Of a DNA stretch of 64,000 bases, positions 15,586-24,987 are shown in pieces; within the stretch, counting starts at the first letter, position 1, and every line of letters starts with the position of its first letter. The notes under the pieces were generated by a model, which was not told where the DNA came from, did no database searches, and saw nothing but the letters and a program-made list of their open reading frames with translations. Origin of the DNA: Sphaerisporangium siamense (lineage in GTDB: Bacteria; Actinomycetota; Actinomycetes; Streptosporangiales; Streptosporangiaceae). The DNA lies in assembly GCF_014205275.1 (NCBI RefSeq), contig NZ_JACHND010000001.1, positions 1,674,001 through 1,738,000 on the forward strand, in the 5' to 3' direction. Made by a program: the position numbers and the translations under genes.

Positions 15586-15756
15586 GAGGAAGGGTGCTGG
15601 GGCGGCTTGGCGAAACGCTTCTCATCCGCAAGCCGGCGACCGTGCATATCTCTATGCCGTCGACGGGTTCCGCGATCGGCTCGCGCTTTCCGGTCCGGCC
15701 TTTAGAAGGCCTGATTCGCCGTTATCCATCCGGCCACGTGACATCGGGAGGACGTT

Positions 15757-16116
15757 GTGAGTGATCGTCTTGTGCGCACGGTGGAGGTGCCGGTAGGCGA
15801 TGGCAGGGACGAGATCGTCCGTGTGCAGATCCGCGAAGTGGACGAAACGCTCGTTCGGGTGGGCAGAGGCGCGCGCTCCATAGTGCGAGCCGAACGATCG
15901 CTCGGGCAGATGCTGGACACCGTTCGCCCTGTGGCCGAGAGCTTCGTCACCCGGTTTCAGGACCTCGCCAACGCGCCGGACGAGATCGTGCTGGAGTTCG
16001 GGGTCTCGCTGTCGGCCGAAGCGGACATCGTCATCGCGAGCACGGCGACCGCGGCCAACTTCTCGGTGAGCCTGACGTGGAAACGCGGCGAGAAGCCGGA
16101 CGGGACCGGGGACTGA
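15757..16116 (+). CDS. Trypsin-co-occurring domain 1 (Trypco1, CU044_2847-like) protein
   Basis: The GTG 15757 lies five bases after GGGAGG. The 119-residue product reads VRTVEVPVGDGRDEIVRVQIREVDE, then a helix (IVRAERSLGQMLDTVRPVAESFVTRFQDL) and DEIVLEFGVSLSAEADIVIASTATAANFSVSLTWKR. The ending ...FGVSLSAEA...ANF.V.LTW is the hallmark of the CU044_2847/Trypco1 family. These small proteins are encoded beside trypsin-like proteases in predicted NTP-dependent conflict systems. Here the trypsin-nSTAND gene begins 46 bp downstream. It probably modulates or presents the trigger for the protease; this is inference from gene context. Confidence 0.85.
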   Translation: MSDRLVRTVEVPVGDGRDEIVRVQIREVDETLVRVGRGARSIVRAERSLGQMLDTVRPVAESFVTRFQDLANAPDEIVLEFGVSLSAEADIVIASTATAANFSVSLTWKRGEKPDGTGD

Positions 16117-16162
16117 TCGGCAAGGGGGGATTCGGTCCGGCCTGAGGTGCGGAGGAGACCTG

Positions 16163-19100
16163 ATGGCGGAGACGGCACGGACATGGTCGGGCAGTCCGGA
16201 CGAGGCCATCGCCGCAGCGGTCGTCCAGGTCAAGGGACAGCACGGTGCGCTGGGGGGCGCGGGCTTCCTCATCGCCCCGGATCTGGTGCTGACCTGCGCC
16301 CACGTGGTGTCGGACGCGCTGGAGAAGTCCCACTGGGAGCCGGTGGCCACAGGGACGCCGGTCATGGTGGAGTTCCCGCTGCGGGAGTCGCCGACCGGCG
16401 GTGAGGGACGGCGGATGTGGCCGGCCATGGTCCAGGACTGGGTGCCGATCAGGGCCGAGCGGACCGGCGACATCGCCGTCCTCCGGCTCCCTGAGCCCGT
16501 CCCTGGTACCCGCCCGCTCCCCATGGCCGACCCCGACAGGGTGCAGGGCGGTGAGGTGCGCGCGGTGGGATTCCCCCATGACGCGCCGGGCGGGACCTGG
16601 TTCGACGGCAGGATCAGCGGCGCGACGGGCGAGGGCTGGATGGAGCTGTCGCGGGCCAACGGGCAGACCGTCCACGTCAAGCCCGGTTTCAGCGGCAGCC
16701 CCGTCTGGCACAACACGCTGGGCGCGGTGGTCGGCCTCTTGGTGGCCGCGCAGTCGGCGGGCGACGCCCAGCAGGCTTACGCGCTGCGCACGAGGACCCT
16801 CGTGCGGGAGATTCCCGGACTCGGCCCCGTCATCCGCCCGCCCTCTCCTTTCCGCGGCCTGAAGCCCTACGAGGAAGGCGACGCCGACCTCTTCTTCGGG
16901 CGGGAGGAGGACATCGCCAACGTCGTCACGGCCCTGCGCGGGGCGCGCACCGTGACGGTGTACGGGCCCTCGGGCTGCGGCAAGTCCTCCCTGGCTCTGG
17001 CCGGTGTGGTGCCCCGGATGCGGGCGGACGGATACGAGGTGCTGGCGTTCAACGCCGGGTTGATCTCCTCCATGCGGGCCGCGCTGGCCACCGAGCTGTA
17101 TGAGGCCGTCCGGTCCGGGCGGTACGGGCCCGCGCGTGCCGACAGCGCCGACCAGGTCGAGGCCTGGCTCGCGGGTAAGGGGTTCGCCGACACGCTCCAC
17201 CGCGTCCGGGGCACGGTGTCCGGCGATCTCCTCGTCGTCCTCGACCAGGCGGAAGGGCTCCTGAACCGCACCGAATCCGAGATCGACGAACTCACCGACC
17301 TGCTGTTCCCGCAGCACCACCCGATCGGCGCGGTACGGATCCTCGTCACGTTGCGCTCCGACCTGATGGACCCGGTTCTGAGACATCCACGCCTGGGGCC
17401 CGCGTTGCTCGGCGGAACGACGTTGCCGCTCGCGCCCATGTCCTCCGAGCAGTTGAAGGAGGTGATCATCGAACCCGTCGAGCGGCTCGCGGCCGTGGCC
17501 TACGAACCGGGGCTGGCCCGGCGCATCCTGGACGACGCGGGCGGCGAGCCGGGCATCCTCCCCCTGCTGGGGTTCGTCCTGCAGCAGTTATGGGAACAGC
17601 AGGACGGCGGCTACCTGCGGAACGCGGCCTACGAAGCGATGCGGGGCGTGTCCGGCGCGCTGAGACACCACGCCGAGCGGGCATGGAACGACCGGGTCGA
17701 CGGCGAGCCGGACAAGGAGGAGGCGGCGCGGCGGCTGCTCACCAAACTGGTGCGGATGCTGCCCGGCAGCCAGATCGTGCTGCGCCGCAGGCTCACCCGG
17801 GACGAGGTGGACGAGACCCAGTGGGATCTCGCGAAGGCGTTCGCCGAGCGGCGGCTGCTGGTGCTGCACGGAGGGGAGGGCGAACCGGAGAGCGCGGAAC
17901 TGGCCCACGAGGCGCTGATCACGGCATGGCCCGCACTGCGGGACCAGGTGGAGGCGGACAGGAAGTTCCTGGCCGGGCGGGCGGAGCTGGCACATGACCT
18001 GCAGCGCTGGCAGCACGGCGCACAGTCGGCGGGCCTGCTGCCGAACAGAGGAGAACTACAGGCGATCGACCAGTGGCTGGGCGGGCGTGCGGGCGAACTG
18101 GCCGAAGAGGAACGCGAGTTCCTGACCGCGGCCCGCCGGCGGAGCCGGAAGCTACGACGGCGCACCCGGGCTACGCAGACCGCGGTGGCCATGGTGCTCG
18201 CGCTGATCGTGGCCCTGGTCGGCTTTCTCGTCAACCAGATGCGGGTCAGCGCGGAGCGGGCGGACGAGAGCAGGTCACGTGCGCTGGCGAGTTCCACAGG
18301 GGAGATGGCCGAGGAAGACCCGGGGCTCGCGGCCCTGGCGGCCATCGCCGCGTACGACGTCGCGCCGACGCAGGAGGCCCGTAACGCGCTGCTGCAGCGA
18401 TACGACCAGCTCAAGGACGCCGCCTGGATGCTGACGGGCTCCGAGGGGTCGATCCTGGACACCGCGATGAGCGCCGACGGCACGGTGACGCTGGCCTCCT
18501 CCGCGCACGGCCGCGCGACACTGTTCGTCCGCCAAGCCGGCGGCAGGGTCCTGCGCGAGCGTCTCGGCCTCGCGGGCAGAACACAGTTCCCGCTGGTCAG
18601 CAGGGACGGCCGCCGCATCGCCTACATGATGCAGGAGGACGACTCCATAACCTGGCACGACGTGCGCTACACGGCGGCCGACATCGTCGTAGGACCAGCA
18701 CATCGGCTGCGCGGCGCCGCGCTCCAGGAGCCCGACCCGAGAGGACGGTACGGCGACCTCGACATCGCCGCCTTCTCACCGAGTGCCGATCGGATCGCCA
18801 CGGTGGCGTTCGACGGACGGTTGCGGGTGTGGGACCTGACGACACAGCGGCTCCAAGAGCTGCCGGGGCATCTCCCTGACCTGCAACAGGTGTGGTTCGG
18901 CTCGGATGAGAACACGCTCGTGGCCGCGCGGCGGCAAAGCGGACACTCCATGGTGTCCCTCGACCTCCGCACCGGCGCCGTACGGGAACTGGAAGATCAT
19001 CGCAGCGCGCCGGCGCCGGGTTCGATGATGGAAGTCGAGGTAGCGGCTGACGGAAGCGTCCTGGCCGTCTGCCGCGACGCGCTCGGTCGCGGAGAAAAGG

Positions 19101-20455
19101 CGGCCTACCGGCTCATCCGCGTATCCGACGGGCGGGAGCTGGCCCGCTACACTCCCCAGACCGACTACATCTCGTGCGCACGCCCCGCCATCGACCCGGC
19201 AGGCGAACACGTCGCGATCAATGAGGGAAGCGCTCAGTGGGTGCTCCTCGGCACCCGGCCGGGCACGCCCCCGGAACGGTTCAGTGGTCCCAACCTCATC
19301 TCCGGCGAGGCCGGCCCCCTGCTCGGCACGCCGAGCGACCCCATCGTGATCCACCGTGACAAAGCCGGCGTGACCGGCTGGAAGATGTTCGCCGACGACG
19401 GATTGCGGGCGTCCAGCCTGCCGGAACTACTCGACCGAGGTCGTACCATGCTCGTCCGCGCCGGAACGGACGGCAAGGTCGACGACCGGCTGGCGATCAT
19501 TGAGACCGAAGGGCAAGGAAGAACGCTCGCCGAGGTCCGCTTCGCCCCCACACCCTCCGACCAGCATCTGCTGCTGACCGTCAACCGCGCCGAGACGCTT
19601 GTGGCCGACAGGGCCGACCACAACAAGATCGTGGTCTACGACCTTCCGCGACTGCGCAAAGTGGCCGAGATCACCACCCGCATGCCTCCGGCCGACAAGG
19701 GCGGGGTACGAGAACAGGTGTACTCCTTCTTCTTCACCGATGAGGAACTGGTGACGGTCTCAGGAAGGGTGATCGAACACTGGAATGCCCGCGATGGTCG
19801 GCGCCTGTCCAATCCGCTGGATATTCACGATTATTACCCCGACCTCGTGAACTTCCATGTGCAGCGGCATTACAAGCCGGGATATCTGCAGATCACGAAC
19901 GTACGCGACCACACTTTGCTCGCCTTCCGGTTGGCGACCCGCACGGACGATCCGGATCTGCGGATCCGCCTTGGGATCGGTACGTCCATCGCGGTGGTCG
20001 AGCCCAGCGGTCGCTACGCCCTCGTGCTGATGTCAGGGAACATGTTCGAGTTGTGGTCGGTACAAGACCGTCTGCGAACGCGGAAGATACCGCCTGCCTT
20101 CGGACCCGTCTCCGGGAATGAAACCCAATTGGGGGTCGTCAGAGACGGCGGTTCCGAGAACGCCGCGTTCTTCCTGGCCTATGGACGCTCTGTGCGCTTC
20201 ATGAATCTGTCCGACTCCGGTGATGTCGACGTGACCACCTATAATTTCCCCGGTCAACAGATCTTCATAGCATCGACTCAGGACGGGAAGGCCCTGCTCA
20301 GGAGACGCACACCCGGAGACGCCGTAGATCTGTTCCGGCTCGATCCCGAAGTGTGGAAATCCCACCTGTGCGACGTCCTGGGACGCGACCTCACCGAAGA
20401 CGAACGCCGCATCCTGCCACCGGGGCTTCCGGACGTCATATGCCCACCCCGATGA
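16163..20455 (+). CDS. Trypsin-like protease - nSTAND1 NTPase - TM - beta-propeller protein
   Basis: The ATG follows GGAGGAGA; 1430 residues. Residues 15-215 form a trypsin-like protease with a complete triad: His47 (LTCAHVVS), Asp103 (GDIAVLRL), Ser177 (GFSGSP). PSPFRGLKPYEEGDADLFFGRE (228-247) opens an nSTAND1 NTPase with Walker A GPSGCGKSS at 268 and Walker B LLVVLDQAE at 357, followed by winged-helix/helical regions. A membrane helix lies near 672-692 (AMVLALIVALVGFLV). The last 700 residues are degenerate WD40-like blades (IAAFSPSADRIATVAFDGRLRVWDL). It ends in the W..HLCDVLGRDLTEDE signature of STAND-propeller proteins. Known logic: the propeller senses, the NTPase switches, the protease executes. 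The trigger is unknown. Confidence 0.88.
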   Translation: MAETARTWSGSPDEAIAAAVVQVKGQHGALGGAGFLIAPDLVLTCAHVVSDALEKSHWEPVATGTPVMVEFPLRESPTGGEGRRMWPAMVQDWVPIRAERTGDIAVLRLPEPVPGTRPLPMADPDRVQGGEVRAVGFPHDAPGGTWFDGRISGATGEGWMELSRANGQTVHVKPGFSGSPVWHNTLGAVVGLLVAAQSAGDAQQAYALRTRTLVREIPGLGPVIRPPSPFRGLKPYEEGDADLFFGREEDIANVVTALRGARTVTVYGPSGCGKSSLALAGVVPRMRADGYEVLAFNAGLISSMRAALATELYEAVRSGRYGPARADSADQVEAWLAGKGFADTLHRVRGTVSGDLLVVLDQAEGLLNRTESEIDELTDLLFPQHHPIGAVRILVTLRSDLMDPVLRHPRLGPALLGGTTLPLAPMSSEQLKEVIIEPVERLAAVAYEPGLARRILDDAGGEPGILPLLGFVLQQLWEQQDGGYLRNAAYEAMRGVSGALRHHAERAWNDRVDGEPDKEEAARRLLTKLVRMLPGSQIVLRRRLTRDEVDETQWDLAKAFAERRLLVLHGGEGEPESAELAHEALITAWPALRDQVEADRKFLAGRAELAHDLQRWQHGAQSAGLLPNRGELQAIDQWLGGRAGELAEEEREFLTAARRRSRKLRRRTRATQTAVAMVLALIVALVGFLVNQMRVSAERADESRSRALASSTGEMAEEDPGLAALAAIAAYDVAPTQEARNALLQRYDQLKDAAWMLTGSEGSILDTAMSADGTVTLASSAHGRATLFVRQAGGRVLRERLGLAGRTQFPLVSRDGRRIAYMMQEDDSITWHDVRYTAADIVVGPAHRLRGAALQEPDPRGRYGDLDIAAFSPSADRIATVAFDGRLRVWDLTTQRLQELPGHLPDLQQVWFGSDENTLVAARRQSGHSMVSLDLRTGAVRELEDHRSAPAPGSMMEVEVAADGSVLAVCRDALGRGEKAAYRLIRVSDGRELARYTPQTDYISCARPAIDPAGEHVAINEGSAQWVLLGTRPGTPPERFSGPNLISGEAGPLLGTPSDPIVIHRDKAGVTGWKMFADDGLRASSLPELLDRGRTMLVRAGTDGKVDDRLAIIETEGQGRTLAEVRFAPTPSDQHLLLTVNRAETLVADRADHNKIVVYDLPRLRKVAEITTRMPPADKGGVREQVYSFFFTDEELVTVSGRVIEHWNARDGRRLSNPLDIHDYYPDLVNFHVQRHYKPGYLQITNVRDHTLLAFRLATRTDDPDLRIRLGIGTSIAVVEPSGRYALVLMSGNMFELWSVQDRLRTRKIPPAFGPVSGNETQLGVVRDGGSENAAFFLAYGRSVRFMNLSDSGDVDVTTYNFPGQQIFIASTQDGKALLRRRTPGDAVDLFRLDPEVWKSHLCDVLGRDLTEDERRILPPGLPDVICPPR

Positions 20456-20569
20456 ACAACCTCAGGGTCGCCCTGAGGAACGCGGCGGTGTGCCCGGAAA
20501 CGCCCGTCGGCAGGTGCGGTGGACCGGCCGCCGACACGATCTTCGCCCGGACAGCCGGTGGCCTGCGAG

Positions 20570-21553
20570 CTACAGCTGACGCAGCACCTGCATGGCGTCC
20601 TTCTCGATGCGTGAGAGAGCGTGGAGGGTGGCGCCGGCCTGTTCGAGGTATCCCGTGTCGCTGCTTTCTCCTGCTTTCGCGATCAAGGTGGATACGTGCG
20701 TCCACAGGGTGGCGGCTTCGGCGTACAGCTTGTGGGCGGTGCGGAGGTTGTCGTTGTCGATCAGTTGGGTGCATTCGTCGAGGAAGTCGCGATAGAGGGC
20801 GCGGAACAGGGCGCCGCCGGTGCCGGCCTTCTCCATGAGGAGGGCGGCCTGCGGCAGGTCCTGCTGTGGATCGCCGGCGCGTAGCAGCCATTTGGGCACC
20901 TGCTTGCCGGCCTTCTCGATGCCGCGGTGGCCGAGGTTCGCGATGGGAGCGGCGAGGAAGGCGTCGGCGCAGTGTCTGATGGCCGGGATGATCTGGTCCT
21001 GCCAGGGAAGCGGGTGGGCCGGCAGGGTGATGGTGAAGGATCGGTTCCTGGCGGTCATCGGGCCACGTTCGGCCCGCGCCATGGCGAGGCCGGCCCGGCT
21101 GCTGCGCACGGCTCCTCCCTGCTGGTCGGTGTCCACGAGGTAGACGTCGTGCTCGTCGTAGCCGTACATGGCGACGACATGCCCGCCGAAGTGCACCTTG
21201 GACCGGAAATAGTCCAGGTGGTAGCAGTCGAGTTGGAGGCCGACCGGCCGACCGGCGTCGATGGGGCCGGCCGCGTTCTCCCACGCCTTGCGGGCTGAGG
21301 TGGTCTCCTCGACCTTCAACGTCAGCCCCAGCCTGGCGGCCAGGTTCCTGGTGAGCTCGAAAGGCTTGACGCGCCCTCCGAGAAAGGGGAACGCCATGTC
21401 CTTGCCGTCCCAATAGATGAAGGACAGCCCCGAGCCCAGCCCGAACAGCATGGGCTCGGACAGATCGAGCGCCTCGTGCCGCAGCAGCACCCCCAGCGCG
21501 GTCGTCTCACAGTGCTGCATGCCGCGGGGCTCGATGCCCTTCACGATGGTCAT
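20570..21553 (-). CDS. BtrH N-terminal / DUF4872 family protein
   Basis: The 327-residue product has a C39/BtrH-like papain fold: GMQHCETTALGVLLRHE (Cys15, the likely nucleophile), FGGHVVAMYGYDE (His) and VYLVDTDQQG (Asp). The second half is the helical DUF4872 region (LPWQDQIIPAIRHCADAFLAAPIANLGHRGI). BtrH transfers an acyl side chain from a carrier protein in butirosin synthesis; homologues occur in natural-product clusters. No carrier or cluster is present here, so the substrate is open. It is convergent with the trypsin-nSTAND gene. Confidence 0.85.
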   Translation of the reverse strand: MTIVKGIEPRGMQHCETTALGVLLRHEALDLSEPMLFGLGSGLSFIYWDGKDMAFPFLGGRVKPFELTRNLAARLGLTLKVEETTSARKAWENAAGPIDAGRPVGLQLDCYHLDYFRSKVHFGGHVVAMYGYDEHDVYLVDTDQQGGAVRSSRAGLAMARAERGPMTARNRSFTITLPAHPLPWQDQIIPAIRHCADAFLAAPIANLGHRGIEKAGKQVPKWLLRAGDPQQDLPQAALLMEKAGTGGALFRALYRDFLDECTQLIDNDNLRTAHKLYAEAATLWTHVSTLIAKAGESSDTGYLEQAGATLHALSRIEKDAMQVLRQL

Positions 21554-21612
21554 GCGTCGCCCTCCTCATGCCGCTGCGGCCAACGGTCCCACACCGTCAC
21601 CATCCCTGGCAG

Positions 21613-22792
21613 CTACAAGATCAACGCTGGTGGCCGCCAGGAGCAGCATGAGGCCTCCCACCGTGGGAGAGTCCAGTCACACGGAAGATCGACGGCGACA
21701 CCGGGCAGCCCGGCCGGCGGACTTCCCGGCGGACCACGGCCGTCAGGGACAGGGCCGTCGCCAGGGGGGTCAGTATTCACGCGTCGTCGACATGTAGTGG
21801 CGTGGGTAGAGGTTTGTGTGGTGGTTTGGATGGAGCCGGCGGGGGTGGTGGGGCGCCATTCGATGAGGAGGACGGTGGCGTCGTCGGCCAGGGACGCGCC
21901 CGCTTCTTCGCTGAACAGGTCGTGGACGAGGCGGCGCAGCGCCTCGGGGGCGGACATGCCGGCCGCGGTGGTCCCTATGATGGTGTCGGCCAGCCGGTCC
22001 AGTCCGAACAGTTCGCCTTCGATCGTGCCCGGCGGCGTCGAACAGCGAGACGTGGACCACGCGGTTCATGATGGAGAAGTCGTAGGCGTCCCCGCCGAGC
22101 TGGTAGACGGGTTCGGCGGCGGCGCAGATCACCACATCCTGGGTGGCGAAGGTCTGACCGGGTATGAACGCCCAGACCATCTCGGCCGACAGCCGCATCC
22201 GCTCGCGGCGGCGCAACTGGTTGAACACGTCGCTGTAGCCGCCGTGGCTGACCACCAGCAACGCCACGACGCCGGCGAGCAACTGGCACCGCTGCAGCAC
22301 CTGTTCGTCCAGATGGTCGACGGTCAGCTCCAGCACCCCCACCCGGACGTTGCCGTCCACCAGCGGCAGCCAGATCCGGTGCCGGCGCGCCGGCTCACCC
22401 ACCCGGGTCAGCTCGCCGGGGACCTGGCTGTCTTCGGCCGTCACCACGGTCAGCTTCCTGTAGGCCAACCCGGCCACCGTGCCCTCGATCCGCACCACGC
22501 CGCGCTCCCGCCCGGCGACGTCCGGATCGTCTGGCTCAGCGTCGAACTGCGCGGCGTCATCGCCGCCCGCCCCCGAAGGCACCTCCGGGGGCAGCGGCAC
22601 GAGCACTTTCTCCTGCAGGTCCGCCAGATACACCACCACGCGGCGGACCCCCAGCGGCCCGGCATTGTCGGTGATCACGTCGGCGAGCCGGGCCGGCGGC
22701 TGCGCCCGTGCCACCCGCAGCACCTCGGCCAGTACTTGTTCGCCTACCGACAGTTCGGCAGATGCATCGCCGTCCATGGCCTTGACTCGCAA
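21613..22792 (-). pseudogene. Broken GAF - SpoIIE (PP2C-like) phosphatase
   Basis: The N-terminal part (22792 down to about 22040) is intact: a GAF-like region and the phosphatase start (AFIPGQTFATQDVVICAAAEPVYQLGGDAYDF, then VSLFDAAGHD). Immediately after GHD the frame changes. The next recognisable piece, in another frame, is GELFGLDRLADTI...SAPEALRRLVHDLFS...LADDATVLLIEWRP, which is the C-terminal end of such enzymes. The roughly 100 residues normally between GHD and GEFFG are missing. An internal deletion that also shifted the frame explains this. The downstream reading also runs past the usual end. Confidence 0.75.
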
Positions 22793-23028
22793 CCCGTTCG
22801 ATACGGCCGCCGTCCTGCGTCGTGCCTCACCGAAGGCCGGGGGCCGTCTGCCTCACTACCGTTGATACCCGCGGCGTCCCGTACCAACAATGAAGAACCC
22901 AACGGATACGCCTCTGACCTGGGATCGGTCGAGCCGTCCGCCGTAGCCGTGGATCATGATCTGAAGCGCCGTTCGCGGTGGGCGCCAGGGGAGGAAGGCC
23001 ACCAGCGGCGACGGGGCGTGGTCGGAGG

Positions 23029-23562
23029 TCAGGACAGAGTGTCCTTGATCGCGATCTGGCCGTCCACGATGACGAACTTCTGGTTGGTGTTGTTGTAGTC
23101 GCACCGCCACAAGTACACCTGCGTGCCGTTGCCGCGGCCGTTGGTGGCGTCCAGGCACAGCGGGTTGGCCGAGTTGAGCGTGGACTTGAGGAAGATCAGG
23201 TTTCTCCGGACGACCCAGAGCTGGTTGGCGTTGCTCACGCACTGCCACTGGTAGACCCGGGTGCCGTTGGCGCGGCCGTTGGAGGAGTCCAGACACATCA
23301 CCTGGCTCTTGCCGATGGTGTCTTCCACCTTCACGAGGCCGTCCTCGATGACGAACTTCTGGTTGGTGTTGTTGCTGTCGCACTGCCACTGGTACATCAG
23401 GACGCCGTTGCCACGGTTGTTGCTGACGTCGACGCACATCGCGGTCCCGACGTGGGTGGCGGGGCCGGGGGGCTCGTGGGCGGAGGCGACCGCGGGCAGG
23501 GGGACGACCGCCCCCATGGCGGTGGAGATGACGGCGGTGGCCAGCAGATGGCGAGCGAGCAT
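23029..23562 (-). CDS. Secreted ricin-type beta-trefoil lectin protein
   Basis: The 177-residue product has a signal peptide (MLARHLLATAVISTAMGAVVPLPAVASA). Three homologous subdomains follow, each with a Cys pair and the QxW-type ending: CVDVSNNRGNGVLMYQWQC, CLDSSNGRANGTRVYQWQC and CLDATNGRGNGTQVYLWRC. This is a stand-alone carbohydrate-binding trefoil without an attached hydrolase. It would bind glycans outside the cell. Monocistronic. Confidence 0.9.
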   Translation of the reverse strand: MLARHLLATAVISTAMGAVVPLPAVASAHEPPGPATHVGTAMCVDVSNNRGNGVLMYQWQCDSNNTNQKFVIEDGLVKVEDTIGKSQVMCLDSSNGRANGTRVYQWQCVSNANQLWVVRRNLIFLKSTLNSANPLCLDATNGRGNGTQVYLWRCDYNNTNQKFVIVDGQIAIKDTLS

Positions 23563-23640
23563 GGTTGCCTCTCAGAAAAGTCGATCAAGACATGAGCACC
23601 CTGCCACAACTGGTTGTCAGCGATCAATTACTGAACGTGT

Positions 23641-24510
23641 TCATGTCCGCGTGCTGCCCGCCGCTGCGACCGGGGGCTCGTCCGAGGTCGCGTGGGCGGG
23701 CGGCGTGAGGAGGCGTCGTAGGGCGAGCGGGGTGTGGCCGAGGTGGTCGCGGACGGTGCGGGTCAGGTGGGCCTGGTCGGCGAAGCCGAGTTCGGCGGCG
23801 AGGCCGGCGAGGCCGGTGTCGCCTTCTTCGAGCCGGTCCATGGCCCGGGCGACGCGGACCCGGTTGCGGTAGCGGGTGAGCGACACGCCGACCTGCTGGG
23901 AGAACACCCGGCTCAGCCGGTACGGCGAGACCCGCAACGCCGCGGCCAGCGAGCACAGCCGCGCCCCCTCCGGCGCTCCGTCCATGATCGCCGCACGGGC
24001 CGCCGTGGCCAGCGCCCGGTGGGCGGGTCTCGTCCGCTCGGCAGGCCGCGGGGCGGTCAGCGCGACGAGACCGAGCAGTTCCTCCGTCAGCGCGTAGTCG
24101 ATGTCGCCGCCCTCCGCGGCGGCGAGGACCCGGCGGTGGGCCAGGTCGACGCGGGCGTCGATGTACACGCTCCTCTTACCGGTACGCCCTTCCCAGAGCC
24201 ACGGGGAGAAGCGCACCGAGGTGCAGACGTCGCCGCCGGCCGGGTGGGCGAACCGCTCCTCCTCACCCGGCGCGCTCAGATAGCCGACCGTCGGATCCAG
24301 ATCGGCGTCGTCGCCGTCGGCCCACCGCCGGAACCGGCCGCGCCGGATGAGCACCAGGCGGTGGCCGTCACGTGCCTCCGGCTTCGACCATCGGGTGTGG
24401 TCGGCGCGGCAGGCCACCGTGCTCACGGTGAACTCGGACCGGGCGGCGAGGGTGACGGCTGACAGCACGCCGCCGAGCGTACGCGGCGGGTACGACGAAA
24501 CGGCCCGCAA
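23641..24510 (-). CDS. AraC-family transcriptional regulator
   Basis: The 289-residue protein has a cupin-like N-terminal sensor (TRWSKPEARDGHRLVLIRRGRFRRWADGDD...VGYLSAPGEEERFAHP) and a C-terminal double helix-turn-helix (SLAAALRVSPYRLSRVFSQQVGVSLTRYRNRVRVARAMDRL ... GLAGLAAELGFADQAHLTRTVRDHLGHTP). It is divergent from a VOC protein 74 bp away, its likely target. Confidence 0.88.
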   Translation of the reverse strand: MRAVSSYPPRTLGGVLSAVTLAARSEFTVSTVACRADHTRWSKPEARDGHRLVLIRRGRFRRWADGDDADLDPTVGYLSAPGEEERFAHPAGGDVCTSVRFSPWLWEGRTGKRSVYIDARVDLAHRRVLAAAEGGDIDYALTEELLGLVALTAPRPAERTRPAHRALATAARAAIMDGAPEGARLCSLAAALRVSPYRLSRVFSQQVGVSLTRYRNRVRVARAMDRLEEGDTGLAGLAAELGFADQAHLTRTVRDHLGHTPLALRRLLTPPAHATSDEPPVAAAGSTRT

Positions 24511-24584
24511 GAATCTTCAAGACCCCGCGGTGCCTAGGCGCGGATGCTGGGGCGGACCAACGACGACAGCAAGGAGTCATCGAC

Positions 24585-24944
24585 ATGGCCGTCCAGGCAG
24601 AGCTCACCGCGATCATCATCGACTGTGCCGCCCCGAAGGCGCTGGCGCGGTTCTATCAGGACGTCACCGGCTGGCAGATCACCCACAGTGACGATGATTT
24701 CGCCTACCTGGGAGAGGGGCCGTTCCAGCTGGCCTTCCAGCGGATCGACGGCTATCGGGGGCCGGGCTGGCCGGACGCCGCCAAGCACGCCCACCTCGAT
24801 TTCAAGGTCGCCGACATCCCGCAGGCCGTCGAGGGGCTGCTCGCCGCCGGCGCGACCAAGCCCGAGTTCCAGCCCGGCGGCGAGGACTGGGTCGTCCTCG
24901 CGGACCCTGAGGGGCACCTGTTCTGCCTGACCGCGAGCGACTGA
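24585..24944 (+). CDS. VOC-family (glyoxalase/dioxygenase-like) protein
   Basis: The 119-residue product shows two beta-alpha-beta-beta-beta modules: LTAIIIDCAAPKALARFYQDVTGW...FAYLGEGPFQLAFQRI and KHAHLDFKVADIPQAVEGLLAAGA...WVVLADPEGHLFCLT. The family binds a metal or a small molecule. This subgroup is often annotated as glyoxalase-like, and no reaction can be assigned. An AraC regulator is divergent. Confidence 0.88.
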   Translation: MAVQAELTAIIIDCAAPKALARFYQDVTGWQITHSDDDFAYLGEGPFQLAFQRIDGYRGPGWPDAAKHAHLDFKVADIPQAVEGLLAAGATKPEFQPGGEDWVVLADPEGHLFCLTASD

Positions 24945-24987
24945 CCGTCGCCGCGGCCGTCAGGGCGACCCCGGGTCCGAGTGTCGC

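Follow-up and report, generated by a model that had tools for sequence, protein, structure and literature searches.

A two-gene unit at positions 15757 to 20455 of a 64,000-nucleotide stretch of Sphaerisporangium siamense DNA (assembly GCF_014205275.1, contig NZ_JACHND010000001.1, positions 1,674,001 to 1,738,000 of the forward strand) encodes a small Trypco1 protein and a 1430-residue protein that combines a trypsin-like protease, an nSTAND1 NTPase, a transmembrane (TM) helix and a predicted propeller. The whole stretch is referred to as the window, and coordinates are given in it. We lean toward the view that the large protein is a membrane-spanning, ATP-gated receptor protease, with Trypco1 as its cytosolic partner or substrate. 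Read from sequence, and described below, are the architecture with its catalytic motifs, the signals of topology, the pairing, the accessory distribution and the exchange of the ectodomain. If the predicted topology holds, a widespread actinobacterial family joins an outside sensor and an ATP-gated protease in one polypeptide, and bacterial NLR-like signaling would be extended toward surface sensing.

The component families are known. Trypco1 has been linked to trypsin (Kaur et al. 2020, PMC7159879), and nSTAND1 was named in PMC8195603 (statements on these and the other cited papers refer to the available parts of their text). Further, a periplasmic location has already been predicted for some STAND-linked sensors (PMC10907252); thus, outside sensing as such has been proposed before. 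A full-text literature search, with supplementary tables and most subscription papers outside its scope, found neither a description of nor an experiment on a Trypco1-paired protein of the TM-propeller form. This accords with the initial annotation of this DNA, made from the letters alone, which knew of no experimental trigger or target for the two-gene form. The TM-propeller receptor-protease layout with Trypco1 seems little described.

The protease and NTPase are conserved

The features of the unit are listed here with their strands.

15757..16116 (+): Trypco1 protein (PF19493/CU044_2847 family), 119 residues, GTG start; Pfam PF19493 86.5 bits (cut-off 24.6), NF041216 (CU044_2847) 78.9 bits (cut-off 23)
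16163..20455 (+): trypsin-nSTAND1-TM-propeller protein, 1430 residues (open reading frame (ORF) call, Pfam, homolog search)
16256..16738 (+): Trypsin_2 protease domain, residues 32-192 (Pfam, homolog alignment)
16301-16303, 16469-16471 and 16691-16693 (+): codons of the catalytic triad His47, Asp103 and Ser177
16847..18028 (+): nSTAND1 NTPase, residues 229-622; Walker A GPSGCGKS at 268-275, Walker B ending in DQAE at 361-364
18176..18232 (+): single TM helix, about residues 672-690, with a lysine/arginine-rich stretch before it (hydrophobicity)
18263..20452 (+): predicted external propeller domain, residues 701-1430; conserved cysteines 970, 1005, 1403 and 1427
18713..19402 (+): fast-changing ectodomain zone, about residues 851-1080, a candidate ligand-facing surface (dN/dS comparisons)
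20369..20443 (+): C-terminal tail carrying the Cys1403-Cys1427 pair; tails of this kind occur in TM-bearing and not in TM-less relatives

The two ORFs lie 46 bases apart, and their starts, GTG15757 and ATG16163, are each preceded by a purine-rich site. The GC fraction by codon position is 0.70/0.47/0.83 in the Trypco1 ORF and 0.72/0.49/0.85 in the large one. Both genes were found where the initial annotation had placed them, and the Pfam domains agree with its description.

In the large protein, Pfam recognizes Trypsin_2 (75.7 bits, residues 32-192) and nSTAND1 (PF20703; 288 bits, residues 229-622, covering profile positions 1-377 of 379). Motifs were counted in the best 120 of at least 985 homologs, drawn from 8000 candidates. 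His47 is kept in 118 of these 120, and Asp103 and Ser177 in 119 each, the remainder being gaps, and all 120 have both the lysine of Walker A and the DQxE of Walker B. Thus, the intact protease and the good Walker motifs described in the initial annotation are borne out. A wider set of 81 distinct genes was assembled from surveys of the order and of Streptomyces (67 from loci fetched via the large protein and 14 from loci fetched mostly via Trypco1; ORFs shorter than 1000 residues and duplicates, e.g., L159, L167 and L198, were excluded). In this set the triad occurs in 78 of the 81 genes, the exceptions being two ORFs without the N-terminal portion and the trypsin-less L119. One protein, P0015, was considered as a protease-free class and rejected, as the start of its protease is missing and it looks truncated. 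Profile searches of the PDB with the trypsin or nSTAND1 domain alone returned weak matches only.

Predicted placement of the protease and the propeller on opposite faces of the membrane

A segment was called TM when its mean Kyte-Doolittle hydrophobicity over 19 residues was above 1.6, a threshold of our own choosing. The strongest hydrophobic window is centered at query residues 670-689 in all of the best 120 homologs, which agrees with the membrane helix annotated between the NTPase and the propeller; one or two extra segments exceed the threshold in 42 of them. Lysine and arginine are in excess on the NTPase side of this helix in 120/120 (mean 7.4 vs 1.8). The N-terminus of the large protein has no segment exceeding the threshold, which fits a cytosolic protease. 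Exactly four cysteines follow the helix in 118 of the 120 homologs, with 118-120 of the set retaining the cysteine at each of positions 970, 1005, 1403 and 1427.

The wider set permits a comparison of proteins with and without the helix, which is present in 76 of the 81 relatives and lacking in five. All 76 TM-bearing relatives have the positive charge on the NTPase side, and 75 of them carry a cysteine pair within the last 80 residues, versus none of the five TM-less ones; the sole TM form without the pair is L155, and the stretch that contains it stops at the end of its contig. From the charge bias in all TM forms and the tail cysteine pair, which the TM-less relatives lack, the protease and NTPase are predicted to lie inside and the propeller outside. 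The comparison is strong evidence, of a sequence-based kind, for an external, disulfide-bonded propeller and an internal protease and NTPase. The opposite faces proposed for sensor and protease in the initial annotation are therefore the predicted arrangement. The layout is not unusual, as had been supposed there: it is the rule in this family rather than an oddity, and all 67 Streptomyces genes fetched via the large protein have it.

The five TM-less relatives (L064, L069, L071, L072 and L093) are Trypco1-linked trypsin-nSTAND1 proteins and probably represent a cytosolic sister form. Their existence lends something to a different explanation, in which the large protein is a STAND immune sensor of the cytosol with no more than a tether in the membrane, its propeller folding inside, near the membrane, and recognizing phage proteins. 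Two of the five were scanned, and both carry canonical WD40 repeats; further, binding of phage proteins is known from characterized antiviral STAND sensors (PMC10907252). However, the charge bias in 76/76 TM forms, the distribution of the tail cysteine pair (75/76 vs 0/5) and the strict conservation of the four ectodomain cysteines run counter to an internal propeller, and we consider this explanation very unlikely.

The ectodomain has WD40-type features and diverges rapidly

The initial annotation described a long, degenerate beta-propeller. Searched alone, the window protein gives WD40-type matches at about residues 870-970, under the Pfam cut-offs; one or two blade-sized stretches of its ectodomain are recognized as WD40-type, and the rest is too divergent. 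Among 39 homologous ectodomains, 28 match Beta-prop_THOC3 at E<=0.001. A profile built from these 39 ectodomains matches solved WD40 propellers (best 2ymu, E=7.8e-51), the match running via one blade-sized stretch (about residues 862-925) that is repeated along the target. A propeller is thus recognized around residues 860-970 only, and the remaining blades are putative. The two TM-less relatives scanned bear their canonical WD40 repeats at the same position (11 stretches in L064 and six in L093). In sum, of the domains for which the initial annotation proposed searches, trypsin, nSTAND1 and the TM helix (by hydrophobicity) were confirmed, and the propeller was confirmed in part, through a weak WD40-type stretch.

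Four related loci (L146, L147, L149 and L151) retain the intracellular part of the unit with a very different ectodomain. Their identity to the window is 61-74% in Trypco1, 46-55% in trypsin and 44-52% in nSTAND1, and 17-20% in the ectodomain, which is the level of the most distant ectodomains in the alignment. For L043 the corresponding values are 69, 51 and 60%, with 41% in the ectodomain. Weak WD40-type matches persist in L146 and L147, the two of the four that were scanned; these ectodomains may therefore be very divergent propellers that were not replaced. In another locus (L039:7848-11896), a close Trypco1 is followed by a protein with a trypsin domain, a TM helix, a glycine/asparagine-rich linker and a ricin lectin. 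We read the four related loci and L039 as pointing to exchangeable outside sensors. The next gene in L039, as read by eye, has a comparable TM-linker-lectin arrangement behind a different N-terminal part.

The ratio of nonsynonymous (dN) to synonymous (dS) change, omega, is higher in the ectodomain than in trypsin in all of 13 pairs within the window's subfamily. In sliding-window comparisons of five pairs, a dN peak near residues 850-1080 is clear in three, and for the pair formed by the window and L120, dN equals dS in one stretch of this zone.

Trypco1 and the cytosolic half

A Pfam scan of the Trypco1 protein matched its own family only. The structure model (mean pLDDT 49.2) is too poor for a fold search; its order of two strands, a helix and then further strands is a hint only. 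A PDB profile search with Trypco1 mainly returned helical bundles, many of which are designed proteins, with the match running along the helix. Trypco1 distances rank-correlate with those of nSTAND1 (0.88), trypsin (0.84) and the ectodomain (0.71; 62 gene pairs, permutation p=0.001 each), all three values being inflated by relatedness. Since Trypco1 divergence tracks that of nSTAND1 and trypsin more closely than that of the ectodomain, Trypco1 probably acts on the cytosolic protease-NTPase half.

Distribution and pairing

The large protein occurs in two of the 11 genomes of the genus. In a survey of 121 genomes of the order, Trypco1 was found in 66 and a trypsin-nSTAND1 match at E<=1e-40 in 10; eight of the nine matches that include trypsin, the window counted, have Trypco1 within 1 kb upstream. 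Among 392 Streptomyces genomes, at least 60 have a relative of the large protein (E<=1e-80) and at least 97 have Trypco1 (E<=1e-10); up to three candidates per genome were scored for the large protein and 11 for Trypco1, and copy counts are thus lower bounds. Plasmid records gave 27 matches at E<=1e-60, ten of which span at least 80% of the large protein; the records were typed as non-mobilizable (20), mobilizable (6) or conjugative (1). Six near-full-length plasmid copies were inspected, and a CU044_2847 protein is encoded directly upstream in all five records that are annotated. Phage records gave two matches, mainly in the NTPase region, at 31-32% identity. No other neighbor family recurs in more than six of 45 loci. 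The patchy distribution, the plasmid copies and the lack of any other frequent neighbor make the unit an accessory, sometimes plasmid-borne and mostly two-gene element. It is not the core housekeeping locus whose discovery, according to the initial annotation, would have spoken against a conflict module.

This distribution bears on the possibility that the unit serves developmental or envelope-stress signaling in filamentous actinobacteria, in which a signal from outside would end in the controlled cleavage of a regulator in the cytosol. An external sensor, purifying selection (omega below 1) and the lack of consistent defense neighbors (see below) would suit such a role. Yet patchy presence and plasmid carriage misfit a developmental core function, and Trypco1 is otherwise tied to predicted conflict systems (PMC7159879). 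We judge this role unlikely.

Pairing was counted in the 67 Streptomyces genes fetched via the large protein, which were not selected for Trypco1. Trypco1 lies upstream in 20 of 27 close relatives and in 38 of all 67. The pairing whose frequency the initial annotation proposed to survey is therefore common but not obligate, and an obligate pair was rejected as a description. Viewed from Trypco1, 23 of the 26 loci listed have trypsin, nSTAND1 and an ectodomain downstream (in L017 over two ORFs), L039 has its different partner, and L020 and L025 have no trypsin partner; in L025, an nSTAND1 gene without trypsin lies about 2.3 kb upstream.

These counts also affect the proposal of a toxin-antitoxin-like pair, in which Trypco1 would hold the protease off and its loss or breakdown would free the enzyme. 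Consistent with this proposal, the small gene is conserved directly upstream, the unit is carried on plasmids, and Trypco1 changes more slowly than trypsin (75-84% vs 46-59% identity in 23 Streptomyces relatives). However, seven of the 27 close relatives have an intact protease and no Trypco1 upstream, and Trypco1 occurs with no trypsin-nSTAND1 gene in the fetched stretch in L020, L025 and L202. A toxin-antitoxin-like pair is, in our estimation, quite unlikely.

Several loci show other arrangements. In one Streptomyces genome, a close Trypco1 (L202, 77% identity) lies about 5 Mb from the trypsin-nSTAND1 gene (L162); given this separation, the two may work in trans. L160 and L190 each contain two trypsin-nSTAND1-TM genes inside one locus, suggesting tandem paralogs. 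A second Trypco1 in the same genome as the window (L040, G000:C1:7414500-7429500) adjoins a protein of 2269 residues that matches trypsin and NACHT, and in two genomes of the same genus (L041 and L042) Trypco1 stands beside a similarly large trypsin protein.

Relation to known systems

The ternary VMAP (MoxR-vWA) systems of Kaur et al. 2020 (PMC7159879) share Trypco1-trypsin pairs with the window unit. An example with the same gene order, L051, has VMAP-C and VMAP-M8, whereas the peptidase in the window is fused to nSTAND1, a TM helix and a propeller. Membership in the VMAP systems was rejected, as the large protein has no VMAP match; no MoxR or vWA was found among the 13 neighboring ORFs scanned. 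The EACC1 two-gene membrane systems, from the same source, are likewise actinobacterial and membrane-linked and combine a peptidase with variable domains. They have a caspase or cyclase and an EACC1 protein where the window has trypsin and Trypco1, and assignment to them was rejected on this ground; further, their small protein always carries a TM segment, whereas in the window only the large protein does.

The STAND-effector nSTAND1 systems of PMC8195603, which names both trypsin and nSTAND1, likewise combine, within a single polypeptide, an effector domain with a STAND NTPase and a sensing region at the C-terminus. The sensors described there are of the FGS type, and a TM helix with an outside propeller and Trypco1 does not appear among them. 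The STAND antigen sensors of multicellular bacteria that are diversified by diversity-generating retroelements (PMC10907252) also join putative sensors to nSTAND1 or NACHT, but these are CLec sensors varied by a retroelement. In that paper, Trypco1 is tied to MoxR systems and not to a trypsin-nSTAND1-TM-propeller protein. In the CARD-NLR-like systems (PMC13236601), a trypsin-like peptidase and a STAND-type ATPase also cooperate, controlling cell lysis, but they reside in several separate proteins, and no outside sensor is noted.

The nearest proven mechanism comes from AVAST type 1 (Avs1) and the Hachiman-type nuclease-protease pairs (PMC12799240), in which, as here, a small gene lies directly upstream of a defense-fused trypsin. 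There, the STAND- or Hachiman-linked trypsin proteolytically activates the pro-nuclease encoded upstream. Similar activation of Trypco1 by the window trypsin would be an analogy only, because Trypco1 matched no Pfam family other than its own. The large protein matches Avs1b with 22.5 bits over residues 13-140 (cut-off 1500), and in PADLOC with E=8.4e-5 over residues 13-139 only. Assignment to Avs1 was rejected: the Avs1b match is partial, and the upstream gene encodes Trypco1 rather than a nuclease of the metallo-beta-lactamase (MBL) fold.

Proposed mechanism

STAND proteins as a family exchange ADP for ATP and oligomerize. In a membrane-spanning, ATP-gated receptor protease, a WD40-like ectodomain with two predicted disulfides, lying outside the cytoplasmic membrane, would bind a ligand or sense a surface change, and the signal would cross via the single TM helix to the cytosolic nSTAND1 NTPase. 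This domain would swap ADP for ATP and oligomerize, and its assembly would join the N-terminal trypsin domains and switch the protease on. Trypco1, from the preceding gene, would act on the protease-NTPase half as a regulatory or docking subunit or as its first substrate. Proteolysis would then harm the cell or trigger a response, most likely under phage attack or in conflict with neighbors. The parts of this scheme that we infer are sensing of a ligand, assembly driven by ATP, activation of the protease, the part played by Trypco1 and the biological purpose. The initial annotation placed trypsin-STAND combinations among predicted immune or conflict systems. For this protein the role stays a guess; we regard an immune or conflict function as plausible but unproven.

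More tentatively, the family may consist of membrane-spanning, NLR-like STAND receptors in which exchangeable ectodomains (propellers of more than one kind or, in an NTPase-less form, a lectin) read external signals and gate a cytosolic trypsin; we hold this broader idea to be possible, with slightly less than even odds. If true, it would define a surface-reading branch of the bacterial NLR-like proteins with a protease output. The family offers natural tests, in that it contains the same protease half with exchanged ectodomains, TM-less relatives and Trypco1-less relatives.

A number of observations weigh against the receptor-protease scheme. The predicted disulfides and blades of the ectodomain are drawn from sequence alone. 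The five controls without the helix are remote relatives that came from Trypco1-based fetching, three of them belong to a single genus, and an even number of cysteines does not discriminate the forms (69/76 with the helix and 3/5 without). Compared with nSTAND1, the ectodomain has the higher omega in no more than 9 of the 13 pairs, and its domain-wide value stays below 1 (0.33-0.54). Between the window and L120, dS is itself higher in the ectodomain (0.28 vs 0.13-0.15), which may reflect recombination. Ectodomains of the window's type occur in at least 4 of the 121 order genomes (up to eight candidates per genome scored), always in this kind of protein, and so do not form a module that is traded freely. 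No Trypco1 lies upstream of the 7 of 27 close relatives noted above, and three of these seven genomes have no Trypco1 at E<=1e-10. Finally, the defense-island location that the initial annotation had proposed to examine did not emerge among the nearest neighbors. A PADLOC scan of 123 of the 274 neighbor ORFs of 45 loci (the nearest, up to 900 residues; E<=1e-10), with no control set, gave 21 families and no consistent defense neighbors or island, the most frequent being mad2 (6/123) and mad3 (4/123).

Flanking genes

In the window, a GNAT gene precedes the Trypco1 gene. A convergent BtrH_N/DUF4872 gene (20570-21553, minus strand) follows the unit; it is present in eight of the 11 genus genomes, mostly in different neighborhoods. 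Seven other BtrH-like loci were fetched for an empty-site test within the genus, and no clean empty site was found among them. The module and its right flank (window 15616-24957) recur in L120 alone; the other six have little in common with the window beyond the BtrH-like gene. Between the unit and the convergent gene lies one further feature.

20460..20478 (no strand): 8-bp inverted repeat directly 3' of the stop codon, a possible terminator of the convergent gene (consensus scan only)

The consensus scan gave four such sites in the region versus 1.9 expected. In two other genomes, a large gene stands beside the pair (L043:6820-9159 and L045:323-2581); by its look it may be of the DUF262/GmrSD type.
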